NCBI RefSeq assembly: GCF_000759025.1
Contig: NZ_JPOS01000033.1
Coordinates: 62,001 to 126,000, forward strand
DNA: 64,000 bases
DNA from: Phaeodactylibacter xiamenensis
GTDB lineage: Bacteria; Bacteroidota; Bacteroidia; Chitinophagales; Saprospiraceae
Direction: 5' to 3'
How positions within the stretch are numbered: position 1 is the first letter of the stretch; each line of letters starts with the position of its first letter. A program made the translations under genes and the position numbers. Below are positions 6,105 to 64,000 of the stretch, piece by piece. Under the pieces are notes generated by a model, which was given only the letters and a program-made list of their open reading frames with translations, ran no database searches and was not told the origin of the DNA.

Positions 6105-7625
6105 ATGAAGTATCCAATTGGCATACAGGATTTTCGAAAGCTTAGGGAAGGCGGTTATGTTTATGTGGACAAGACCATGAACTTATATCGTATTCTGGAG
6201 GGTGGGAGTTACTTCTTTCTCTCCCGGCCACGCCGCTTTGGCAAAAGCCTGTTACTTTCCATCATAAATGAGCTGTATAGAGGCAGCAAGGAGTTATTTC
6301 AGGGGCTTTGGATTGAAAACCACTGGGATTGGGAAGGGGAGTACCGGCCTGTAATTTGGTTGCGGTTTGCTTCCTTCAACTACAAAGATAACGAGCTCAA
6401 AGCGGCCATTTGGGAGGGCGTGGAGGAAGCCGCCGAAAGCTTGGGGATTGAATTGGATAATCGTGAACTTACGCACCCACTTCAACAGCTCATTCAAAAA
6501 GCGTATCATCACTTTGGTCAGAAAGTGGTATTGCTCATCGACGAGTACGACAAGCCGATCATTGACTACCTTGACGAACCTGAAAAGGCAGAAGCTAACC
6601 GGGATACGCTAAAATGGTTTTATTCGGTTTTAAAGGATAGCGACCCCTATCTGGAGCTCGTTTTCGTAACCGGCGTTTCGGCCTTCAGTAAAGTCAGCAT
6701 CTTTTCTGACCTCAACAACCTGTATAACCTTTCTCTCGTAGCCCCGGCCCGAACCTTGCTCGGCATCACGCAGGAAGAGCTGGAGCACTATTTTGCGCAG
6801 CCCTTGAAAACCGTGGATAAAGAGGAGGTCCGTCGTTGGTATAATGGTTATTCCTGGGGCGGCACAGAGAGAGTGTATAATCCCTTCTCTATTCTTAGTT
6901 TTTTCCGGGGTGGGGGAGAGTACCGAAATTTTTGGTTCGAGACCGGTACACCGACCTTTCTCGTAAAAGAAATGAAGAAGCGCAGCTACTTCAACCTGAG
7001 GGATACGCTTGCCACCCAGCATGACCTCAATAGTTTCGACCTGCGTAATTTACAGCCCATCCCCATCCTTTTTCAAACGGGATACCTCACCATTAAGCAC
7101 TATGAGCCGGCAGACTTGGTTTATACCCTGGATTACCCCAACCAGGAAGTCCGGCATTCCCTTCAGGAAGTGCTTTTGAAAGAGTACCTCGATTATCCGT
7201 CTGAGAATCCGGTACCAAAAGTATTGCGGCTGCGGGAGGCAATGCGCTCCGGTCATTTAGAGGAAGCTTTTCAGATTATCAATTCGGCTTTTTCAGAAAT
7301 TCCTTACGATCATTGGAAAGGGCAAACGGAGCATTTTTACCACGCTGTAGTAGCTTTGATTTTTTCATTGTTAGGGACCTACATTCGCTCAGAAGTACAC
7401 TCTTCCCGCGGCCGCTGCGATGCGCTGGTGGAAACGGCTGATCGTGTTTATGCGCTTGAGTTCAAATTGGATAAAAGTGCGGGAGAAGCGCTTCAGCAAA
7501 TTCAGGATAAAGGATACCTTGAGCCCTACGCGGACTCACCCCGGCAAAAAATTGCTGTAGGTATCAATTTCTCTTCAGCCGAGCGGCGTATTGTGGAATG
7601 GGAAGCGGTGGAGCTATATTTTTAA
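6105..7625 (+). CDS. AAA-ATPase-like protein with C-terminal PD-(D/E)XK nuclease-like domain
   Basis: 506 residues. The N-terminal two thirds is the AAA-ATPase_like family, with GIQDFRKLREGGYVYVDKT, a P-loop variant RPRRFGKSLLLS (about 45-56), a Walker B-type VVLLIDEYDKPI (about 140) and FVTGVSAFSKVSIFSDLNNL. The C-terminal part is PDDEXK_9-like: EVHSSRGRCDALVETADRVYALEFK carries the Asp...Glu-x-Lys pattern of restriction-type nucleases. The family is strongly expanded in Bacteroidota and has no established role; an accessory or defence function has been suggested from its fold. Two close relatives lie at 59067 and 60739. Intact, with an ATG start right after a promoter-like box. Confidence 0.9.
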   Translation: MKYPIGIQDFRKLREGGYVYVDKTMNLYRILEGGSYFFLSRPRRFGKSLLLSIINELYRGSKELFQGLWIENHWDWEGEYRPVIWLRFASFNYKDNELKAAIWEGVEEAAESLGIELDNRELTHPLQQLIQKAYHHFGQKVVLLIDEYDKPIIDYLDEPEKAEANRDTLKWFYSVLKDSDPYLELVFVTGVSAFSKVSIFSDLNNLYNLSLVAPARTLLGITQEELEHYFAQPLKTVDKEEVRRWYNGYSWGGTERVYNPFSILSFFRGGGEYRNFWFETGTPTFLVKEMKKRSYFNLRDTLATQHDLNSFDLRNLQPIPILFQTGYLTIKHYEPADLVYTLDYPNQEVRHSLQEVLLKEYLDYPSENPVPKVLRLREAMRSGHLEEAFQIINSAFSEIPYDHWKGQTEHFYHAVVALIFSLLGTYIRSEVHSSRGRCDALVETADRVYALEFKLDKSAGEALQQIQDKGYLEPYADSPRQKIAVGINFSSAERRIVEWEAVELYF

Positions 7626-53997: not shown

Positions 53998-54139
53998 TGC
54001 ACGGGTTTTGTTCTGAGTGCAATGATAGGGAGCATATATTATTTGGAAGCAGGTGGTTGGACTAAGCGGGGTGAGGATTCGACGAAAAATAACTTCAACT
54101 TAAGTATCAGAGATCTATGACTTGAGGCACTAGGCTTGA

Positions 54140-55888: not shown

Positions 55889-56089
55889 AGTGGTTGAGAT
55901 ACCGGATGGGTTTGACCATCGCAGTGAATACGCAGATTACTTAATGGAGAAGTATAGATGAAGAAGATATTCATTGACACGAATATTGTACTTGATCTGT
56001 TAGGGCAAAGAGCACCGTTTTATCAAGATGCCGCTAAGCTCTTTTCTTTAGCCGATCGAAAAGAAATAAAATTGTGTGTATCTTCTTTA

Positions 56090-56307
56090 TAGTCCGCCAA
56101 CCCAAAATTTGTGATTTCTGACCCCGACGATGAATGTCGGGATTCAAGAACTTGCTCTTTTTCCACCTAGCTGCGTTAAAAGGCCTCGCCGACTTCACCG
56201 TGGGGCCCCTTACCCCACGCTTCGTGTAGGCATCGCCTACGTTTTTCGCCTTGCGAGCTGAAAAAATAGCTGCGCCATAATTTCACAAATCTTAAGTTGT
56301 TGGACTA
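56090..56307. mobile_element. MITE A, 218 bp palindromic element with TA duplication
   Basis: Ends TAGTCCgccaaccc and aagttgttGGACTA, related over about 30 bases as an imperfect inverted repeat, flanked on both sides by TA (56088-56089, 56308-56309). It has no open frame; the interior contains short GC-rich palindromes. TA duplication is the hallmark of Tc1/mariner-IS630 type transposition. No parent transposase is in this window. Confidence 0.85.
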
Positions 56308-56364
56308 TAAGTTTTGCCAATGCAAATTACATTTTATCAAAGCTGAAGTCAAAAGAAGAAGCTA

Positions 56365-56525
56365 GCAGCCTGTCGGAGATGTGCTGATGCGGCGAGAGCG
56401 AGCAAATATTGTTCTGAACAAGGCGCGAAGAAGGAACATAGCCTGAGCTACGTGACTGATGAGCAACGAAGTGCAGAATAATATTTGCCGTTCGCAGACC
56501 ATTGAGCGCCTCTCCGACAGGCTGC
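56365..56525. mobile_element. MITE B, 161 bp palindromic element with TA duplication
   Basis: Perfect 14-base terminal inverted repeats GCAGCCTGTCGGAG / CTCCGACAGGCTGC, flanked by TA on both sides (16 bases perfect when TA is counted). The interior is also partly palindromic: GCAAATATT-TTCTG occurs in both arms. No coding capacity. Inserted in the same PIN toxin as MITE A, with a different sequence. Confidence 0.88.
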
Positions 56526-56761
56526 TAGAGCAATTTTAACAAGGTTCAAGGTATTGGTTGAAGTACTTGCACTCGATGATAAGATTTTAGAATTGTCCTT
56601 GAATGATGATGCCTTCAGCGATTTTGAGGATGGATTACAATACTATACAGCGTTGGAAAACGAATCAGATGTCATTATTACAAGAAATTTGAGGGATTTT
56701 AAAACTTCCGCTATTCCGGTTATGACCGCAGGGCAGTATTTGCAGAAGTAATACTTTGCTA

Positions 56762-56789
56762 TAGTCCAACAACTTAGTAGTTTGGACTA
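56762..56789. mobile_element. 28-bp minimal relic related to MITE A
   Basis: TAGTCCAACAACTTA followed by GTAGTTTGGACTA, flanked by TA on each side (56760-56761, 56790-56791). The left arm equals the reverse complement of MITE A's right end, so this looks like two element ends with the interior deleted. It lies 10 bases after the PIN toxin stop. Confidence 0.6.
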
Positions 56790-56806
56790 TAAAACCAAAA
56801 CAATAA

Positions 56807-56944
56807 GGGCTGCTACAGGCGTACGAAGATGGGGATGACTTTCAGGTAGCATTCCAATTGGCTAACCTGAAGGCTCCGAATAAACTTATTTATACGCAAT
56901 ACGAAGTGGTTTGCGACATCGAAGCAAACCACTTCCCAGCGTAG
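56807..56944 (+). pseudogene. Possible fragment of an unknown gene
   Basis: An open frame of 45 codons without a start codon (AYEDGDDFQVAFQLANLKAP and onward, ending CDIEANHFPA) reads like a piece of a real protein, but no family was recognised. It could be chance. It lies between the MITE relic and a set of short inverted repeats. Confidence 0.3.
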
Positions 56945-57034
56945 ATGCTGACCCTCCTGCCTTTAAGGTGGTCAAAGCCTAAAGGCGGCGAGACACGGGC
57001 AAGCATTGAGTAGGTTTGCTGTGGCAAACCACTT
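56904..57034. repeat. Short inverted repeats GCAAACCACTT in the noncoding region before the DUF885-like gene's end
   Basis: AAGTGGTTTGC (56904-56914) pairs with GCAAACCACTT (56924-56934) as an 11-bp stem with a 9-base loop. GCAAACCACTT recurs at 57024-57034, where its GCAAACC pairs with a nearby GGTTTGC (57013-57019). The whole span 56752-57057 holds no intact gene, only the MITE relic, the fragment at 56807 and these hairpins, one of which may end transcription of the leftward gene. Confidence 0.6.
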
Positions 57035-57057
57035 AATCATCAGTATAACTCGAATTT

Positions 57058-58731
57058 TTAATCTGATTTCGAGCCTGCCTCCTTCGTGTTGTGATAAACT
57101 GCTGGTTCTCCAGTGAGCTCCCAATGCCCAAGCGCAATAGGTATGTTGCCCATCGCATTGAGCCGGTCAAAGAAATCCATAGGTACAAAACCGTCAGCCT
57201 CAGGTTCCTGCAAACGGGCAAAGTCTGCCAATGCTGCTTCGACCAGGTATTTTCCCGTAATGTAACTGGTCCCATAACCTGGTTGGCGCAGGTACAGGTG
57301 CTGCTCAAAGATCAACAACTCTTTTTCCGTTTTCATCCAGCCTCTTGGGGTGTACTCAGAATGAATCTTCCCTGCTTCCTCCATCGTCATTTCATTGGCG
57401 TGTGCATAGAGGGAACCCAGGCCCCGGGCAGCACGCTGGGCAATCAGGATGTACACAATTTCCCTTACTCTGGGGTCATCATCGTACAGTCCGGCCTGCA
57501 GGAACATTTCCTCCACAGCCGTAGCGACACCTTCACTGCGTGAATCAAAGATGTTATACAGTAGGGCCTCACGTCGAATCTCATTGGGATGAGGCTCATT
57601 ATCCATACGGGCCAGTTCAAACCAGTGGTAAAAGTGGGAATAAAGGGGACGTGGATCATAGTGCGCCGTAATCCAGAAGAAGTGCCGGTCTTCCTCCGGG
57701 ATGTACGCCCCGAGGTGTTCGCGGAGTGCAGGTTCAAAATATGCTTTGACCGTTACCATCTGATCCTGTTCTAAAAAGTAGAGTAAACTTTTCGCAGACC
57801 GCTCTGCCAGCTCGGCGTAAGCTTCGGGGCTGTTAGCCGCTGTCAGTTCCGGAAGGTCACGATTGCGATGCTCCTCCAGCTTTAGTGCGGACCAGGCCCG
57901 GGCAAGTTCCCGTTTCATGAGCATTACCTCGTCCTCCCAGGTCATGGGTACCAGATGAACATTTTGCAGGTACCAGGTATAGTTGTCTTTTCCGATTCCT
58001 GAAGGGCCAGTCTTATTGCCGGCTTCAGCCTCCAGCCAACGGACGAGCTCATCTGTGGAGGCGATGGCAGCTTCTATGGTTTCCATCAACTCCTCGTCAC
58101 CTTCCACGCCCGGTTGTTGAATGATCGCTTTCAGGTCGCTGCTTTGGGTGCGGATATCCCGTATTCCGGCTATCCAGAGATCACGGGCATTACCCGTCAG
58201 GTTGAGCTGAGCTTGTTTATTAAGAGGAGGGATGACTTTGAGGTCCTTAATAAGCCGGGCTCTTTCTGAAGTGCTCAGCGGAAACGCGTATGTCCATATC
58301 TCAGTCGTGCGATGATGCGTTGGCCCTTCGTGGGCAGGCACATCAGACCTGTAGGTCCAGAGTGATTTATAAAATGCAGGGTCTCTTGCCCAGGGGCGCA
58401 GGATGCGATCATTGAAATCATAGCCATTCATTTCTGCCCAAACCAGCGCCCAGTCCACCCGCTGTGGAACCGTCCACTCACTGGTATCCATAGCCAAAAG
58501 CGCTTCCTGTAGCTGCTCAAAAGCAGGCCGGCGGGCTTTGAAGGTCTGAGCGGTATAATCTGGCGCCCCTTCGCGTAAAGGAGGCGTTTCAAAAGCACGC
58601 CATTCCTGGAATAAACTTTTAAGCGCCGCATAGCTCGCCGGAGTGGATTTGCTGGTATACGCACTGCCCGGCAGGGTGGGAAAGAGCAAAAAAGATAATA
58701 TCAATATGGACAGGAAACGGGATGTATTCAT
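57058..58731 (-). CDS. Secreted DUF885-like protein
   Basis: 557 residues with a signal peptide ([20 protein letters not shown], 1-25). The helical layout and blocks such as [19 protein letters not shown] and [16 protein letters not shown] resemble the DUF885 family of M32/thermolysin-like helical metallopeptidases, which usually carry HExxPGHH and EGWAxYxE. Here the second block is altered ([10 protein letters not shown]) and no HExxH is seen, so the zinc site appears lost. It may be a non-enzymatic relative or a different helical family. No partner gene is adjacent. Confidence 0.65.
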
Positions 58732-59066
58732 TCGTTTTTTGTAGAAATATACGAAAACGCATAAACAGGAAGGAGGCTACAAGGCTGGAAAACAAGAGGG
58801 CAATGGCTGTTGTGCCTCAAGATGAACAGGGCTTTATTCGATGCAGGGGCATTTTACCTTTTCCTTTTGAATTAAGAAGCCTTAAAGACTATACCGGCAG
58901 CGCCTCCCGCAACCGCTTCACCACCTCATAAGCGGCCGGGCAGATCGTCGTATTCTTCAGCGTTAAATCCAGGATTTGGGAAAGCGCTGTCCACAAGAGG
59001 CGACTTTGGCGCACTTCTGACCGCCGACCCTTGCGAATCCACTCCAAAAGGCTGTATCTTGCCCCT
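58732..59066. other. Noncoding region with a possible 3' gene relic
   Basis: 335 bases between the divergent DUF885-like gene and the first tandem AAA-ATPase-like gene. On the minus strand a frame ending at 58889 gives LTLKNTTICPAAYEVVKRLR then EALPV and stop, protein-like and perhaps the tail of a lost gene; no family recognised. From about 58995 the sequence belongs to the tandem duplication. A TATCTTGC box lies at 59055-59062, just before the ATG. Confidence 0.4.
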
Positions 59067-62000
59067 ATGAAGTACCCCATTGGCATACAAAGCTTCCGCA
59101 AAATCCGCGAAGAGGGATATGTGTACGTGGACAAGACCCGGCAGATTTACGACCTGATGGGGCATGGGAATTATTTTTTTCTGTCCCGGCCGCGCCGCTT
59201 CGGCAAGTCGCTTCTGCTGTCTACATTGTACGAGTTGTATACCGGTCAGGAAACACTGTTCCGGGATTTATGGATACATGCGCACTGGGATTGGCAGGCA
59301 GCGCCCCGGCCAGTCATCTGGCTGAAGTTTGCCCAAATAGATTACAAAACGAAAGGGTTGGAGGCAGCGCTGTTGGCCGAGGTCCATCGTGTCGCGAAGG
59401 AGCTGGGGGTAAGCCTGTCTGAAGATACCCTGAAAAGCAGTTTTTCAGAGTTGCTGTACGAGGTGGGGCGATCGCAGAAGGTTGTTCTGCTCATAGACGA
59501 GTACGATAAACCGATCATTGATTATCTGGACGACACGCCGCAAGCAGAAGCGAACCGGGATGTCCTGAAGAATTTTTACTCGGTGCTCAAAGATGCTGAC
59601 CCTTACATTGAGTTTCTGTTCCTGACCGGGGTGTCCGCCTTCAGCAAAGTGAGTATTTTTTCGGACCTGAACAACCTGTCCAACATTACCCTTTCCCCTC
59701 AGGGCTACACCTTGCTGGGCATCACACAGGAAGAGCTGGACACGGTTTTTGAAACTCCCATGCAGGCCCACGACCGCGACAAAGTGCGCGAGTGGTACAA
59801 CGGCTACAGCTGGGGCGGGGAGGAGCGCCTGTACAACCCGTTTTCCATCCTGCGTTTTTTGCAGAGCGGGCAGTACCAGAACTACTGGTTTGAGACGGGC
59901 ACACCGACGTTTCTGGTCAAAGAAATGCGCGACAAGCAGTTCTACGAGGTCTCAGGGATAGAAGCAGCAGTAAGCGACCTCAGCAACTTCGATTACCGTC
60001 ACCTCAACCCTGTCAGTGTACTGTTTCAGACTGGGTACCTGACGATCCGTCACTACGAGCCAGAGGACTACCTGTACACATTGGATTACCCCAATAAAGA
60101 AGTCCGTTTTTCTTTGGAGCAGGTGCTGTTGGCTACTTATCTGGGGCATCCATCGGAGAGCCCGCTGCCCCGGATTGTCCATTTGAGGCGTGCTTTGCAG
60201 CAGAAAGACTTGCCATCAGCCATTGACATCCTCAATGCGGCTTTCGCCGAAATCCCCTACGAGCACTGGCAAAAAGAGAATGAGCACTTTTACCATGCCC
60301 TCATTCATTTGATTTTCCGGTTGCTGGGCGTGTATGTCCGCTCCGAAGTCCACACCGCCCGCGGCCGCTGCGATGCCCTTGTAGAAACTGCCGATTACCT
60401 CTACGCCTTCGAGTTCAAGCTCGATCGGCCGGTGGCGGAAGCCCTGCGGCAAATCAGGGAGAAAGGCTATCTATCGGCCTACGCGGACAGCCCGAAGGAG
60501 AAGATTGGCGTGGGCGTCAGTTTTTCCACGGAGCAGAAGGGGATTGTGGATTGGGGGGTGGAGGTGGATTAAGCTTCAGATTGAGATAAGTTAGACAAAG
60601 TATTGGGCCAGCGCACTCATTTTGTGATTATAAAGTGCCAGAAAAAGCAGACGGGCGCTCTGTGAAAAGAGGTGACTTTGGCGCACTTATGACCGCCGCC
60701 CCTTGCGTATCCGCTCCAAAAGGCTGTATCTTGCCCCTATGAAGTACCCCATTGGCATACAAAGCTTCCGCAAAATCCGCGAAGAGGGATATGTGTACGT
60801 GGACAAGACCCGGCAGATTTACGACCTGATGGGGCATGGGAATTATTTTTTTCTGTCCCGGCCGCGCCGCTTCGGCAAGTCGCTTCTGCTGTCTACATTG
60901 TACGAGTTGTATACCGGTCAGGAAGCACTGTTCCGGGATTTATGGATACATGCGCACTGGGATTGGCAGGCAGCGCCCCGGCCAGTCATCTGGCTGAAGT
61001 TTGCCCAAATAGATTACAAAACGAAAGGGTTGGAGGCAGCGCTGTTGGCCGAGGTCCATCGTGTCGCGAAGGAGCTGGGGGTAAGCCTGTCTGAAGATAC
61101 CCTGAAAAGCAGTTTTTCAGAGTTGCTGTACGAGGTGGGGCGATCGCAGAAGGTTGTTCTGCTCATAGACGAGTACGATAAACCGATCATTGATTATCTG
61201 GACGACACGCCGCAAGCAGAAGCGAACCGGGATGTCCTGAAGAATTTTTACTCGGTGCTCAAAGATGCTGACCCCTATATCGAGTTTTTGTTCCTGACCG
61301 GGGTGTCCGCCTTCAGCAAAGTGAGTATTTTTTCGGACCTGAACAACCTGTCCAACATTACCCTTTCCCCTCAGGGCTACACCTTGCTGGGTATCACCCA
61401 GGAAGAGCTGGACACGGTTTTTGAGGCCTCTATGCAGGCCCACGACCGCAGCAAGGTGCGCGAGTGGTACAACGGCTACAGCTGGGGCGGGGAGGAGCGC
61501 CTGTACAACCCGTTTTCCATCCTGCGTTTTTTGCAGAGCGGGCAGTACCAGAACTACTGGTTTGAGACGGGCACACCGACGTTTCTGGTGGGGGAAATGC
61601 GCAAGCACCGTTTCTTTAATATGTCTGGCTTTCAGACGGCCATTAATGACCTGGTCAATTTTGATTATGCACGCTTAAACCCTATCAGCGTACTGTTTCA
61701 GACCGGCTATCTGACCATCCGCCACTACGACCCTGAGCTGCTCATCTATACCCTTGATTACCCAAACCGTGAAGTGCGCTCCTCTTTGGAACAGCTCCTC
61801 ATGAGCGAATACATGGACTATCCGCCGCAGGGTGCGCTGCCCAGGGTCGTTAATATCCTGCAAGCATTGCGCCACCGAGATTTAGAGGCTGTGGTGGACA
61901 TCCTCAATGCGGCTTTCGCCGAAATCCCCTACGAGCACTGGCAAAAAGAGAATGAACACTTTTACCACGCGCTCATCCACCTTACCTTCAGCCTCTTGGG

Positions 62001-62239
62001 GGCTTACACCCGCTCTGAAGTCCACACGGCCCGCGGCCGCTGCGATGCCCTTGTGGAAACCGCCGATTACCTTTACGCCTTCGAGTTCAAGCTCGACCGG
62101 CCGGTGGCGGAAGCCCTGCAGCAAATCCGGGAGAAAGGCTACCTGTCGGCCTACGCGGACAGCCCGAAGGAGAAGATTGGCGTGGGCGTCAGTTTTTCCA
62201 CGGAGCAGAAGGGGATTGTGGATTGGGGGGTGGAGGGCG
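58995..62239 (+). repeat. Tandem duplication of a 1.57-kb unit (two copies, offset 1672 bp)
   Basis: 58995-60567 and 60667-62239 are copies of one unit that includes 70 bases before the ATG and nearly all of the coding region. The first 850 coding bases are almost identical. A 307-bp block (59918-60224 against 61590-61896) is strongly divergent without any length change; the flanks return to near identity, with another small divergent patch around 60303-60357. A sharply bounded divergent block between near-identical flanks points to gene conversion or block exchange. Confidence 0.85.
59067..60572 (+). CDS. AAA-ATPase-like/PD-(D/E)XK protein, tandem copy 1
   Basis: 501 residues from the ATG at 59067 (MKYPIGIQSFRKIREEGYVY); an earlier TTG in frame is less likely. 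Same architecture as the gene at 6105: P-loop variant RPRRFGKSLLLSTLYELYTG, VVLLIDEYDKPIIDYL, FLTGVSAFSKVSIFSDLN, and the nuclease-like HTARGRCDALVETADYLYAF with the EFK ending. The block 285-386 differs sharply from copy 2. Function unknown. Confidence 0.9.
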   Translation: MKYPIGIQSFRKIREEGYVYVDKTRQIYDLMGHGNYFFLSRPRRFGKSLLLSTLYELYTGQETLFRDLWIHAHWDWQAAPRPVIWLKFAQIDYKTKGLEAALLAEVHRVAKELGVSLSEDTLKSSFSELLYEVGRSQKVVLLIDEYDKPIIDYLDDTPQAEANRDVLKNFYSVLKDADPYIEFLFLTGVSAFSKVSIFSDLNNLSNITLSPQGYTLLGITQEELDTVFETPMQAHDRDKVREWYNGYSWGGEERLYNPFSILRFLQSGQYQNYWFETGTPTFLVKEMRDKQFYEVSGIEAAVSDLSNFDYRHLNPVSVLFQTGYLTIRHYEPEDYLYTLDYPNKEVRFSLEQVLLATYLGHPSESPLPRIVHLRRALQQKDLPSAIDILNAAFAEIPYEHWQKENEHFYHALIHLIFRLLGVYVRSEVHTARGRCDALVETADYLYAFEFKLDRPVAEALRQIREKGYLSAYADSPKEKIGVGVSFSTEQKGIVDWGVEVD

Positions 62240-62244
62240 TTTAG
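60739..62244 (+). CDS. AAA-ATPase-like/PD-(D/E)XK protein, tandem copy 2
   Basis: 501 residues from the ATG at 60739. The first 285 residues are almost the same as copy 1. Then FLVGEMRKHRFFNMSGFQTA and onward is a variant block to about residue 386, after which identity returns (DILNAAFAEIPYEHWQKENE). The nuclease-like end is intact. The two copies share their promoter-proximal sequence, so they are probably expressed alike. Confidence 0.9.
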   Translation: MKYPIGIQSFRKIREEGYVYVDKTRQIYDLMGHGNYFFLSRPRRFGKSLLLSTLYELYTGQEALFRDLWIHAHWDWQAAPRPVIWLKFAQIDYKTKGLEAALLAEVHRVAKELGVSLSEDTLKSSFSELLYEVGRSQKVVLLIDEYDKPIIDYLDDTPQAEANRDVLKNFYSVLKDADPYIEFLFLTGVSAFSKVSIFSDLNNLSNITLSPQGYTLLGITQEELDTVFEASMQAHDRSKVREWYNGYSWGGEERLYNPFSILRFLQSGQYQNYWFETGTPTFLVGEMRKHRFFNMSGFQTAINDLVNFDYARLNPISVLFQTGYLTIRHYDPELLIYTLDYPNREVRSSLEQLLMSEYMDYPPQGALPRVVNILQALRHRDLEAVVDILNAAFAEIPYEHWQKENEHFYHALIHLTFSLLGAYTRSEVHTARGRCDALVETADYLYAFEFKLDRPVAEALQQIREKGYLSAYADSPKEKIGVGVSFSTEQKGIVDWGVEGV

Positions 62245-62508
62245 CGATGTGCGCTTTCAGGAAGTGTTAATTTTCTCGGTCAACATTGCAGGTTTAAAAA
62301 TATTGGCTTATATTTGGTGGAATTGTATATTTTTATTTTTTGATTCTTAAATATAGAGCTCTATGAAACCCCCCCCCGGTTCCCATTGCTGTTTCAAAAC
62401 TTAATTTGGTTTTTGCTGTGCGTTCTGATAGTGTTATCAGCCCGCTTTTGATTCCTTTAACCTTGCGCCAAATGGCAAGCTGTAGGCTGCCTTAATCTGT
62501 ATACCTCA

Positions 62509-64000
62509 ATGAAATCATTCCCATTTTACAAGCAACTTGATGCTATGGACTGCGGTCCAAGCTGTCTGCGCATGATCGCAAAACATTATGGCAAGTCTTA
62601 TACCCTTCAATATCTTAGAGATATCTCTTATATCGATCGTGAAGGGGTAAGCCTTAAAGGTATTAGTGAAGCTGCCGAAAGAATTGGTTTTCAACCTATG
62701 GCAGTCAAGATTCCCTTTTCTGCGCAGGGAGAAGCCCCCTCACTTTTAGTGGCTCCACTTCCGGTAATTGCTCATTGGAAGCAAAACCACTTTTTAGTAG
62801 TTTACAAAGCCAATAAAAAACATGTATGGGTCGCAGATCCAGGAGCCGGTAAATTCAGGCTCCCAGCGCAAGAATTTAGGGCAGGTTGGTTATCTGATGG
62901 GCAGAAGGGGGTATGCTTGTTGCTATCGCCGGGAGGCCACTTTTATCAGGAAGAAGAGGACCAGAGTAAGCCTTTAGGATTCGCTTATCTCCTGCAATAT
63001 TTAAAACCCCATCGCGGGCTGCTCTCTCAACTTGTGATCGGACTGTTGTTGGGCTCGCTGTTTTCTTTAGTATTTCCCTTTCTGACGCAGTCAGTCGTAG
63101 ATATCGGTATACAAAACCAGAATATAGGGTTTATATATTTGATACTCATCGGGCACTTGGTCTTATTTATAAGCCAAACTGCGGTAAGGTTCATACAAAA
63201 CTGGATACTGCTCCACATTGGCACTCGTATCAATATCAGCCTCATCAACGATTTTCTTTCTCGTCTTATGAGGCTTCCCATCGGTTTTTTTGATACCAAA
63301 ATGACGGGCGACTTGCTGCAGCGCATAGGTGACCATCGGCGGATCGAGGTTTTTCTGACACAATCGGCTTTATCTGTTATTTTCTCCGTTTTTAATCTAG
63401 TCATTTTCAGTTTTGTACTGCTTTATTACTCGGTCACCATTTTTTAATTTTTGCAGTTGCCGCAGCCTTGTATATGATTTGGATTGCATTCTTTCTTAGG
63501 AGAAGGCGGGAGATTGATTACCGTGCTTTTCAGCAAATGTCTGACAATCAAGATACCCTTATCGAGTTGGTACAGGGTATGCAGGAAATAAAACTGCAAG
63601 ATAGTCAGGCCAAGCGGCGCTGGCGGTGGGCTGAAATTCAAGCCAAGCTTTTCAAGGTTCAGATCAAGTCACTGGCTATCACACAATACCAGGATGGTGG
63701 CGCCACTTTTATTAGCCAGCTCAAAGATATTGTAATCACATTCATGGCTGCAAAATCAGTTATAGATGGACAGATTACGCTGGGTATGATGTTGGCGATT
63801 CAATACATATTAGGGCAGCTCAATGCACCGCTCACCCAACTGGTAGGCTTTGTACGTAGTGCCCAGGATGCGAGGATTAGCCTGGAGCGATTGGGGGAGA
63901 TTCAAAACCAATCTCCTGAAGACGCCGAGGATAATGACAAGTCCACTTTGATTCCTAAAGGTGACTTGGCGCTCAATGGAGTTTATTTTCGTTATAACCA
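62509..64000 (+). pseudogene. C39-peptidase ABC exporter, frameshifted and cut by the window end
   Basis: The first frame (62509-63447, 312 residues) has a C39 peptidase domain (catalytic Cys in LDAMDCGPSCLRMIAKHYGK, His in NHFLVVYKANKKHVWVADPG) that removes double-glycine leader peptides, and the first membrane helices (LVIGLLLGSLFSLVFPFLTQ). It stops at TAA after a run of six T at 63440-63445. One more T would continue the frame as TIFLIFAVAAALYMIWIAFF and on through REIDYRAFQQMSDNQDTLIE to the ATPase start GDLALNGVYFRYN at the window edge. The reading after the run is in another frame, so this is a single-base frameshift or a homopolymer miscall. Such transporters secrete bacteriocin-like peptides; no peptide gene was seen here. 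Confidence 0.85.

Follow-up and report, generated by a model that had tools for sequence, protein, structure and literature searches.

How two neighbouring genes can agree over most of their length and still differ strongly in one sharply bounded block was the question raised by a locus in Phaeodactylibacter xiamenensis. The locus lies in a stretch of 64,000 nucleotides (contig NZ_JPOS01000033.1, positions 62,001 to 126,000; hereafter the window), and its two tandem genes, which we call gene A and gene B, encode proteins of the DUF1703 family, which combines an AAA-ATPase_like domain (PF09820) and a PDDEXK_9 domain (PF08011) in one protein. The results presented here point to a likely answer: paralogs in this family exchange segments by gene conversion around a steadier ATPase/nuclease core, and the combination of exchanged segments, or modules, probably sets the specificity of each protein.

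The divergent block of the tandem pair

The family members in the window and the parts in which genes A and B differed were as follows.

59067 to 60572, + strand: gene A, 501 amino acids (aa) from its ATG, with PF09820 and PF08011; the listed open reading frame (ORF) begins at a TTG at 59031.
60739 to 62244, + strand: gene B, 501 aa, tandem paralog of gene A, with PF09820 and PF08011.
6105 to 7625, + strand: a third gene of the family, encoding 506 aa with PF09820 and PF08011; its identity to gene A is about 60%.
59919 to 60224, + strand: version A of module V4, i.e., the divergent block of gene A (residues 285-386), covering a predicted winged-helix domain and the helices after it.
61591 to 61896, + strand: version B of module V4, the gene B counterpart.
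60291 to 60350, + strand: a second patch of divergence in gene A, at residues 409-428.
61963 to 62022, + strand: counterpart of this patch in gene B.

Gene A scored 195.7 bits with PF09820 and 62.1 bits with PF08011, and gene B scored 195.8 and 60.7 bits; the curated Pfam cut-offs are 26.1 and 25.5 bits, respectively. An initial annotation, made from the letters of this DNA alone, had proposed that the relative at 6105 shares the architecture of the pair and that the genome keeps a set of these proteins. Both proposals held, as the same two Pfam domains were found in the relative and eight family members were identified in the genome with the PF09820 model.

Genes A and B were compared at the nucleotide level in 30-nt bins at a constant 1672-bp offset. 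Positions 59000-59919 and 60672-61591 were almost identical, the poorest bin having 23 of 30 matches (at 59750), and the bins in 59930-60229 had 15 to 26 matches. Agreement returned at 60230-60289 (59/60 matches), fell to 40/60 at 60290-60349, and was then 27 to 30 per bin up to 60559. At the protein level, near-identity ran to residue 284, and the limits of the block listed above were those given by a two-state hidden Markov model. The initial annotation was accurate in describing about 280 near-identical residues followed by a block of about 100 residues; its statement that the copies agree again after the block was mostly correct, but it overlooked the second patch. This patch goes with V4, as 19 of its 20 variable sites matched the block version. 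A weak extra divergent patch was found at residues 221-240. The proportion of synonymous differences (pS) between genes A and B was 0.71 in the block (residues 285-392) versus 0.00 to 0.13 in the five segments before it, which excluded chance as the cause of the block.

The age of the block was examined by comparison with the sister species Phaeodactylibacter luteus KCTC 42180, a genome of the same genus that was assembled independently. P. luteus carried both block versions, one adjoining the window's ATP-binding cassette (ABC) transporter and the other elsewhere; its copies are referred to as A1 (block A) and B1 (block B), and those of the window as A0 and B0. Among the two-versus-two sites of these four copies, 125 grouped the copies by version and 0 by genome in the block and second patch, and 3 grouped them by version and 16 by genome in the rest of the gene. 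For V4 (residues 285-392), the pS and the proportion of nonsynonymous differences (pN) were 0.07 and 0.00 between A0 and A1 and 0.15 and 0.01 between B0 and B1; within the window's genome, they were 0.71 and 0.27 between A0 and B0. Because each version changed little between the species and the synonymous distance between A0 and B0 was close to saturation, the V4 versions must have diverged before the species did. Thus, each version is conserved and both are older than the species split. The gene outside the block has been homogenised within each genome by conversion.

The initial annotation had offered two explanations, namely, selection for variety in the block and gene conversion of a segment. 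The former, taken as fast change, did not survive the comparison with P. luteus, since the near-unchanged versions and the 125-to-0 site pattern ruled out fast diversification of the block. The latter was borne out and proved to be wider than proposed, extending to four modules and several genomes. The comparison of synonymous and nonsynonymous change that it had suggested set the block apart for A0 versus B0, which differed sharply there, but each version was itself constrained.

Variable modules and their re-assortment among paralogs

We collected 160 family sequences (ORFs of at least 300 aa in the fetched loci, with one duplicate reading removed later) and located modules by a windowed comparison of paralogs within genomes. 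Variable stretches occurred at recurrent places, namely, V1 (residues ~11-36), V2 (92-136), V3 (205-271), and V4 (285-386). Between these modules lie the segments with Walker A, Walker B, and the nuclease, in which paralogs resembled one another more closely than in V1-V4. Divergence was non-uniform in this wider comparison, contrary to the even divergence along the gene that the initial annotation had said would refute its proposal. In gene A, the modules upstream of V4 were located at the following positions.

59097 to 59174, + strand: module V1, residues 11-36, preceding Walker A; of one class in genes A and B and of another in P. luteus A1.
59340 to 59474, + strand: module V2, residues 92-136, predicted helices between strand 83-87 and Walker B; protein identical in genes A and B.
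59679 to 59879, + strand: module V3, residues 205-271, predicted helical (lid) domain.

V1 was alike in A0, B0, and B1, and V1 of A1 stood apart: its pS was 0.66 against A0 and 0.70 against B1, and that of the next segment was 0.09 in both comparisons. This indicated that a second module had been exchanged in one lineage. A triple tandem in P. luteus (locus L035) extended this pattern, as V1, V2, and V4 were each common to a different pair of copies. Specifically, the odd copy was copy 2 in V1 (43/46 two-state sites; 1, 43, and 2 for copies 1, 2, and 3), copy 3 in V2 (71/71; 0, 0, and 71), and copy 1 in V4 (98/99; 98, 1, and 0). Heterogeneity across seven segments of the triple tandem gave a chi-square of 412 (p 1e-80), counted in sites and not in events.

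Similar results were obtained with seven paralogs fetched from a Cytophagales metagenome-assembled genome (MAG), bin30 (loci L070, L072, and L077; other copies may exist). V1 and V2 each fell into two classes and V3 into three, all seven combinations differed, and all four V1-by-V2 combinations were seen. The identities were two-peaked (42 or 96-100% for V1, 51-56 or 82-93% for V2, and 51-61 or 96-100% for V3), and V4 was 92-100% identical across all seven paralogs. A closed replicate was provided by Persicobacter psychrovividus NBRC 101262, six of whose copies, carried on five complete plasmids, were compared. The tandem pair on pPP7 (pPP7a and pPP7b) was 96-100% identical in segments C2, V3, V4, and C3, 85-91% identical in V1 and C1, and 30% identical in V2. 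The pPP2 and pPP9 copies shared V1 (100%) and V2 (91%) but were only 47% identical in V4; pPP5 and pPP7b shared V2 (88%), with V1 at 62%. V4 of pPP9 was 47-48% identical to that of the other five copies. The sole close pair on a closed Calditerrivibrio plasmid was 98% identical overall and uninformative as a replicate.

Recent copying between paralogs was visible in identical tracts and in V1 class b, for which four Cytophagales genes had a pS of 0.00, with 0.19-0.47 in the next segment. One identical tract of 392 nt covered V3 and included 144 polymorphic sites, against a 95% shuffle maximum of 23. In a Saprospirales MAG, a 562-nt identical tract over V4 was shared by two paralogs that were otherwise 69% identical; this MAG had 15 tracts of at least 120 nt within the limits applied, and the ends of the exact tracts varied. 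Segments are exchanged by recombination within genomes, and the tract ends often lie in or near conserved motifs. Each of V1-V4 occurs in classes that are old, for the most part discrete, and conserved separately, and these classes have been re-assorted into new combinations. We infer that the exchange is ordinary homologous recombination. Bacteroidota were the only group in which module re-assortment was seen. Divergent stretches, in part at similar positions, also occurred in Thiothrix, Spirochaetaceae, and Bryobacterales, but each of these was represented by a single pair, from which re-assortment cannot be read.

The module edges also recurred in other genomes. With paralog pairs of at least 80% identity from 11 other genomes, 36 of 87 breakpoint clusters were no more than 8 residues from edges derived from Phaeodactylibacter (null, 19.8; 0 of 20,000 rotations). 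At 75% identity, with 12 genomes, 59 of 133 clusters were near these edges (null, 30.3; 0 of 20,000). Two records, from the test genome G025 and from G130, carry the NCBI name Phaeodactylibacter sp. (L089 and L093), although the genus codes of these genomes differ from that of the window. A first test gave 69 of 114 (null, 53.3; p 5e-5) and a fraction of 0.39 versus 0.32 (p 0.006), with edges chosen after some test genomes had been seen and with 19 genome labels, two of which were one genome. The edge tests do not separate recombination from constraint; what told the two apart were the two-versus-two sites, the triple tandem, the Cytophagales combinations, and the exact tracts.

Module identity was mostly two-peaked (three gene sets). 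Within classes, the ratio of nonsynonymous to synonymous substitution rates (dN/dS) was 0.04-0.09 for V modules versus 0.03-0.12 for constant segments (five gene sets). Defining the classes by amino-acid identity lowers the pN within them; the V4 comparison between species is free of this bias and gave an agreeing result. Between classes, the pS was 0.69-0.80 and the pN was 0.26-0.31. V4-B was 80% identical to V4 of two paralogs (L060/L062) in another genus and 58% identical to V4-A, and in a tree of a close set, it was grouped with L060, L062, and L063 (support 98/94). No donor was found among the 160 collected sequences for V4-A, for which the best non-ortholog was 60% identical, or for V1 of P. 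luteus A1. The initial annotation had advised looking for such donor copies; the nearest V4 relatives of V4-B, its P. luteus ortholog aside, were in another genus.

Predicted fold and the probable role of the modules

AlphaFold models of gene A and gene B had mean predicted local distance difference test (pLDDT) scores of 90.1 and 88.3, respectively, and a predicted template modelling (pTM) score of 0.87 in both cases. The secondary structure of V4 was nearly the same in the two models. On the model, V1 corresponded to helices before Walker A, V2 to those that lead from strand 83-87 to Walker B, V3 to the helical domain, and V4 to the winged helix. Residues 1-352 of gene A were matched by VIA-align to 2qen (Z 15.4; root-mean-square deviation, 4.1; 282 residues aligned), with further matches to 2fna (Z 14.5), RPP1 (14.5), CED-4 (13.2), and the Apaf-1 apoptosome (12.5). 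Residues 365-498 matched 7et0_A, a chain of the Wolbachia CinA-CinB complex (Z 10.7), and the matched part is presumably its PD-(D/E)XK domain. Foldseek alone yielded only two origin recognition complex (ORC) entries at E 0.001 or better. A PDB sequence search with gene A gave 0 matches at E up to 1, and NCBIfam gave no match for A or B. At E 0.001, only PF09820 and PF08011 matched A and B, and not PF01420, which we take to be the HsdS target recognition domain family. In 86 aligned sequences, R41-S48 (Walker A, RPRRFGKS), D144-D147 (Walker B, DEYD), D436, and E449 were invariant, and K451 was present in at least 90%.

The predicted fold has the order of nucleotide-binding domain (NBD), helical domain, and winged helix that is found in ATPases of the STAND (signal transduction ATPases with numerous domains)/NB-ARC type. 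We predict that A and B are such a STAND/NB-ARC-like ATPase joined to a PD-(D/E)XK nuclease. As judged by fold match, the order is that of 2qen, 2fna, CED-4, Apaf-1, plant nucleotide-binding leucine-rich repeat proteins (NLRs), and bacterial Avs3. Unlike these proteins, A and B have a C-terminal nuclease (Pfam 404-496 in gene A), and no separate repeat sensor domain is visible in the model, though the archaeal 2qen and 2fna are themselves short, at 350 and 352 residues. HsdS, a second system of comparison, carries two recognition domains and is not known to contain an ATPase or nuclease, whereas up to four modules lie inside the ATPase core of one protein here. The target recognition domains of type I restriction HsdS genes are known to be shuffled (PMC3077401, PMC6265443). 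The DUF1703 modules resemble them in being variable, lying between conserved segments, and being exchanged by recombination.

Previous work on this family had described its fold as an AAA+-type ATPase with the unusual Walker A RPRRFGKS, a helical region, and a PD-(D/E)XK nuclease; in the passages cited here, the helical region is small and lies in mid-protein, whereas our model has a winged helix at the corresponding place in STAND/NB-ARC order (PMC1913061). PF09820 is also listed for RADAR RdrA, PARIS1, and Old-tin (PMC10952713, as far as cited). Intragenic recombination was reported for 25 DUF1703 paralogs of Cardinium cCpun, which form a reticulate network (detected by RDP4), and for an expanded set of paralogs in a midge Rickettsia (detected by the pairwise homoplasy index, PHI); the passages of that paper cited here state that the role of the family is unknown and report no apparent homogenisation (PMC6387759). 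Our gene sets are like these in having the same two domains, many paralogs, and intragenic recombination. They differ from the cited part of the Cardinium report in the module map, discrete classes, cross-species class sharing, and combination counts, and in the homogenisation of segments outside the modules in some sets. No module map for DUF1703 was found in the literature searched, in which only the Cardinium/Rickettsia recombination report surfaced, within the parts cited. DUF1703 is also mentioned in PMC12039267 and PMC7046167. Intragenic recombination in the family and segment shuffling in paralog families were already known, and within this literature the recombination had not been mapped to modules.

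Under the mechanism that we propose, old module classes would be re-assorted among paralogs by gene conversion; the ATP switch and nuclease output would stay constant, and the V1-V4 combination would alter the response, as in bacterial NLR-like sensors or HsdS. The steady catalytic parts, the constrained classes, and the re-assortment suggest, by anatomy, that the combination probably sets the trigger, partner, target, or co-assembling copies of each protein. A bolder idea is that Bacteroidota, and perhaps other phyla, hold a combinatorial repertoire of NLR-like ATPase-nucleases in which gene conversion among paralogs, without dedicated recombinases, keeps re-assorting a few ancient, functionally fixed classes at each of four modules of the ATPase switch, to give many recognition combinations per genome and a single output; we consider this possible but doubtful. 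For this widespread family, the patterned variation points experimenters to where specificity probably lies, and natural near-matched pairs are at hand: A/B (differing chiefly in V4), Persicobacter pPP7a/pPP7b (V2), and Cytophagales L070_932/L077_5534 (V1). Should recognition be set by the modules, bacteria would possess a repertoire that recombination has built in a structural relative of the immune ATPases of animals and plants. Module shuffling may allow a cell to keep many variants of a single molecular sensor.

Several results weighed against modules that are freely shuffled and selected for specificity. V1 and V2 were linked in genome G107 (r 0.99), V3 and V4 in G138 (r 0.81, with V1-V4 at 0.47) and G046 (r 0.71), and in G025 all six module pairs were positive (0.53-0.90), as a plain tree would give; free re-assortment everywhere was ruled out by this linkage. 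Clean classes everywhere were likewise ruled out, as 14 of 272 module comparisons over five gene sets fell at 75-85% identity (7/40 in G046, 5/112 in G107, and 2/84 in the Cytophagales MAG) and Persicobacter V3 was graded (67-86% in 14 of 15 pairs). Approximately unbiased (AU) tests did not reject the monophyly of V4-A plus V4-B (p 0.069 and 0.058 for protein; 0.184 for DNA), and we do not claim V4-B as a lineage shared with another genus. The Cytophagales MAG gave no sign that distinct combinations had been selected for, as random assortment yields seven distinct ones with a P of 0.35, and dN above dS between classes was not seen in the two of five sets in which it was computable (0.12 and 0.22; synonymous sites were saturated in three). 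The shared edges may reflect constraint along the protein, and no defence-island or operon signal was seen among neighbouring genes, for which no control set was run. Part of this would fit neutral concerted evolution, in which conversion homogenises paralogs, diverged segments resist it, and the modules are merely less constrained, their shuffling having no function: module edges lie near conserved motifs, combinations are no more distinct than chance, dN does not exceed dS where computable, and G025 is tree-like. We regard this explanation as unlikely, if a serious one, because constraint on V modules within a class equalled that on the constant segments (with amino-acid identity defining the classes), each of the two V4 versions is nearly unchanged between species, diverged modules have been replaced whole, as by the 562-nt exact tract, and the classes are mostly discrete.

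The modules might instead keep co-resident paralogs from co-assembling rather than recognise outside triggers. They lie in the NBD, helical, and winged-helix domains of the predicted model, and in the wheels formed by CED-4, Apaf-1, and NLRs, these domains touch neighbouring protomers; it is common, though, for paralogs to have the same class at one or two modules, and we think such insulation rather unlikely. It is improbable that DUF1703 is a selfish family whose nuclease cuts relatives or empty sites, so that copies spread and convert each other and the modules recognise DNA targets. The family does occur in several tandem arrays and on plasmids, has no recurrent neighbour family, and sits at synteny breaks in P. 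luteus, but no target site was identified (no search for gene-unit terminal repeats was made), and the varying ends of exact tracts are unlike homing at one fixed cut. An assembly or collapse artefact, which the initial annotation had raised as a threat to its proposal, might be suspected because most genomes used here are drafts or MAGs. It is extremely improbable and was rejected for the family, given that the same two block versions occur in the independently assembled P. luteus and that a like pattern occurs on the closed Persicobacter plasmids. Exchange of modules around a steadier core, with the module combination probably setting specificity, remained our preferred explanation.

Genomic surroundings of the family genes

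PADLOC models gave no match to the three window copies at E 0.001, the best values being 0.03 (A), 0.04 (B), and 0.0051 (Cas4_II, third copy). Among neighbouring proteins, 134 of 143 were scanned; at E 1e-10, 70 PADLOC models had a match, each to a single protein. The commonest Pfam family among these 134 proteins (up to 79 loci) was AAA_5, with 4 proteins. With regard to a type I restriction-modification operon around the genes, ResIII occurred in 2 of the 134 (among the 25 most frequent of 186 families).

The part of gene A that could be aligned to P. luteus B1 was as follows.

58995 to 60564, + strand: stretch alignable to B1, starting some 70 bp before the ATG and ending close to the stop codon.

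The stretch alignable to A1 was 59007-60564. One flank of A1 is the same ABC transporter as that next to B0, and the other matches region C38 (locus L053), on another contig of the window's genome; B1 is flanked by the opposite side of C38. Both P. luteus copies (loci L033 and L034) sit at synteny breaks against window positions 60679-63429 and C38. Two adjoining ORFs beside B1 (L034:10994-12177) resemble what we take to be pieces of an IS630-type transposase. Upstream of gene A, matches between 56300-59000 of the window and P. luteus were about 200 bp or shorter among the 40 of 66 candidates that were scored; an ORF of 557 aa (57058-58731) lies in this stretch. Dispersed repeats of about 40-170 bp occur at window positions ~54076-54133 and 56086-56287, recur several times both in P. 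luteus and in the genome of the window, and are located near family genes and near synteny breaks. Downstream of gene B, the ABC transporter gene (62509-63998), presumably of the C39-peptidase type, is broken across two reading frames near a T run at ~63440, which is either a strain frameshift or a sequencing error.

In collections of mobile elements, the family was present on 61 of 72,556 plasmid records, including 12 from Persicobacter and 8 from Moraxella. It was also present in 28 of 50,697 phage records, each bearing the name Bacteriophage sp., and the ten listed were unannotated human faecal sequences.

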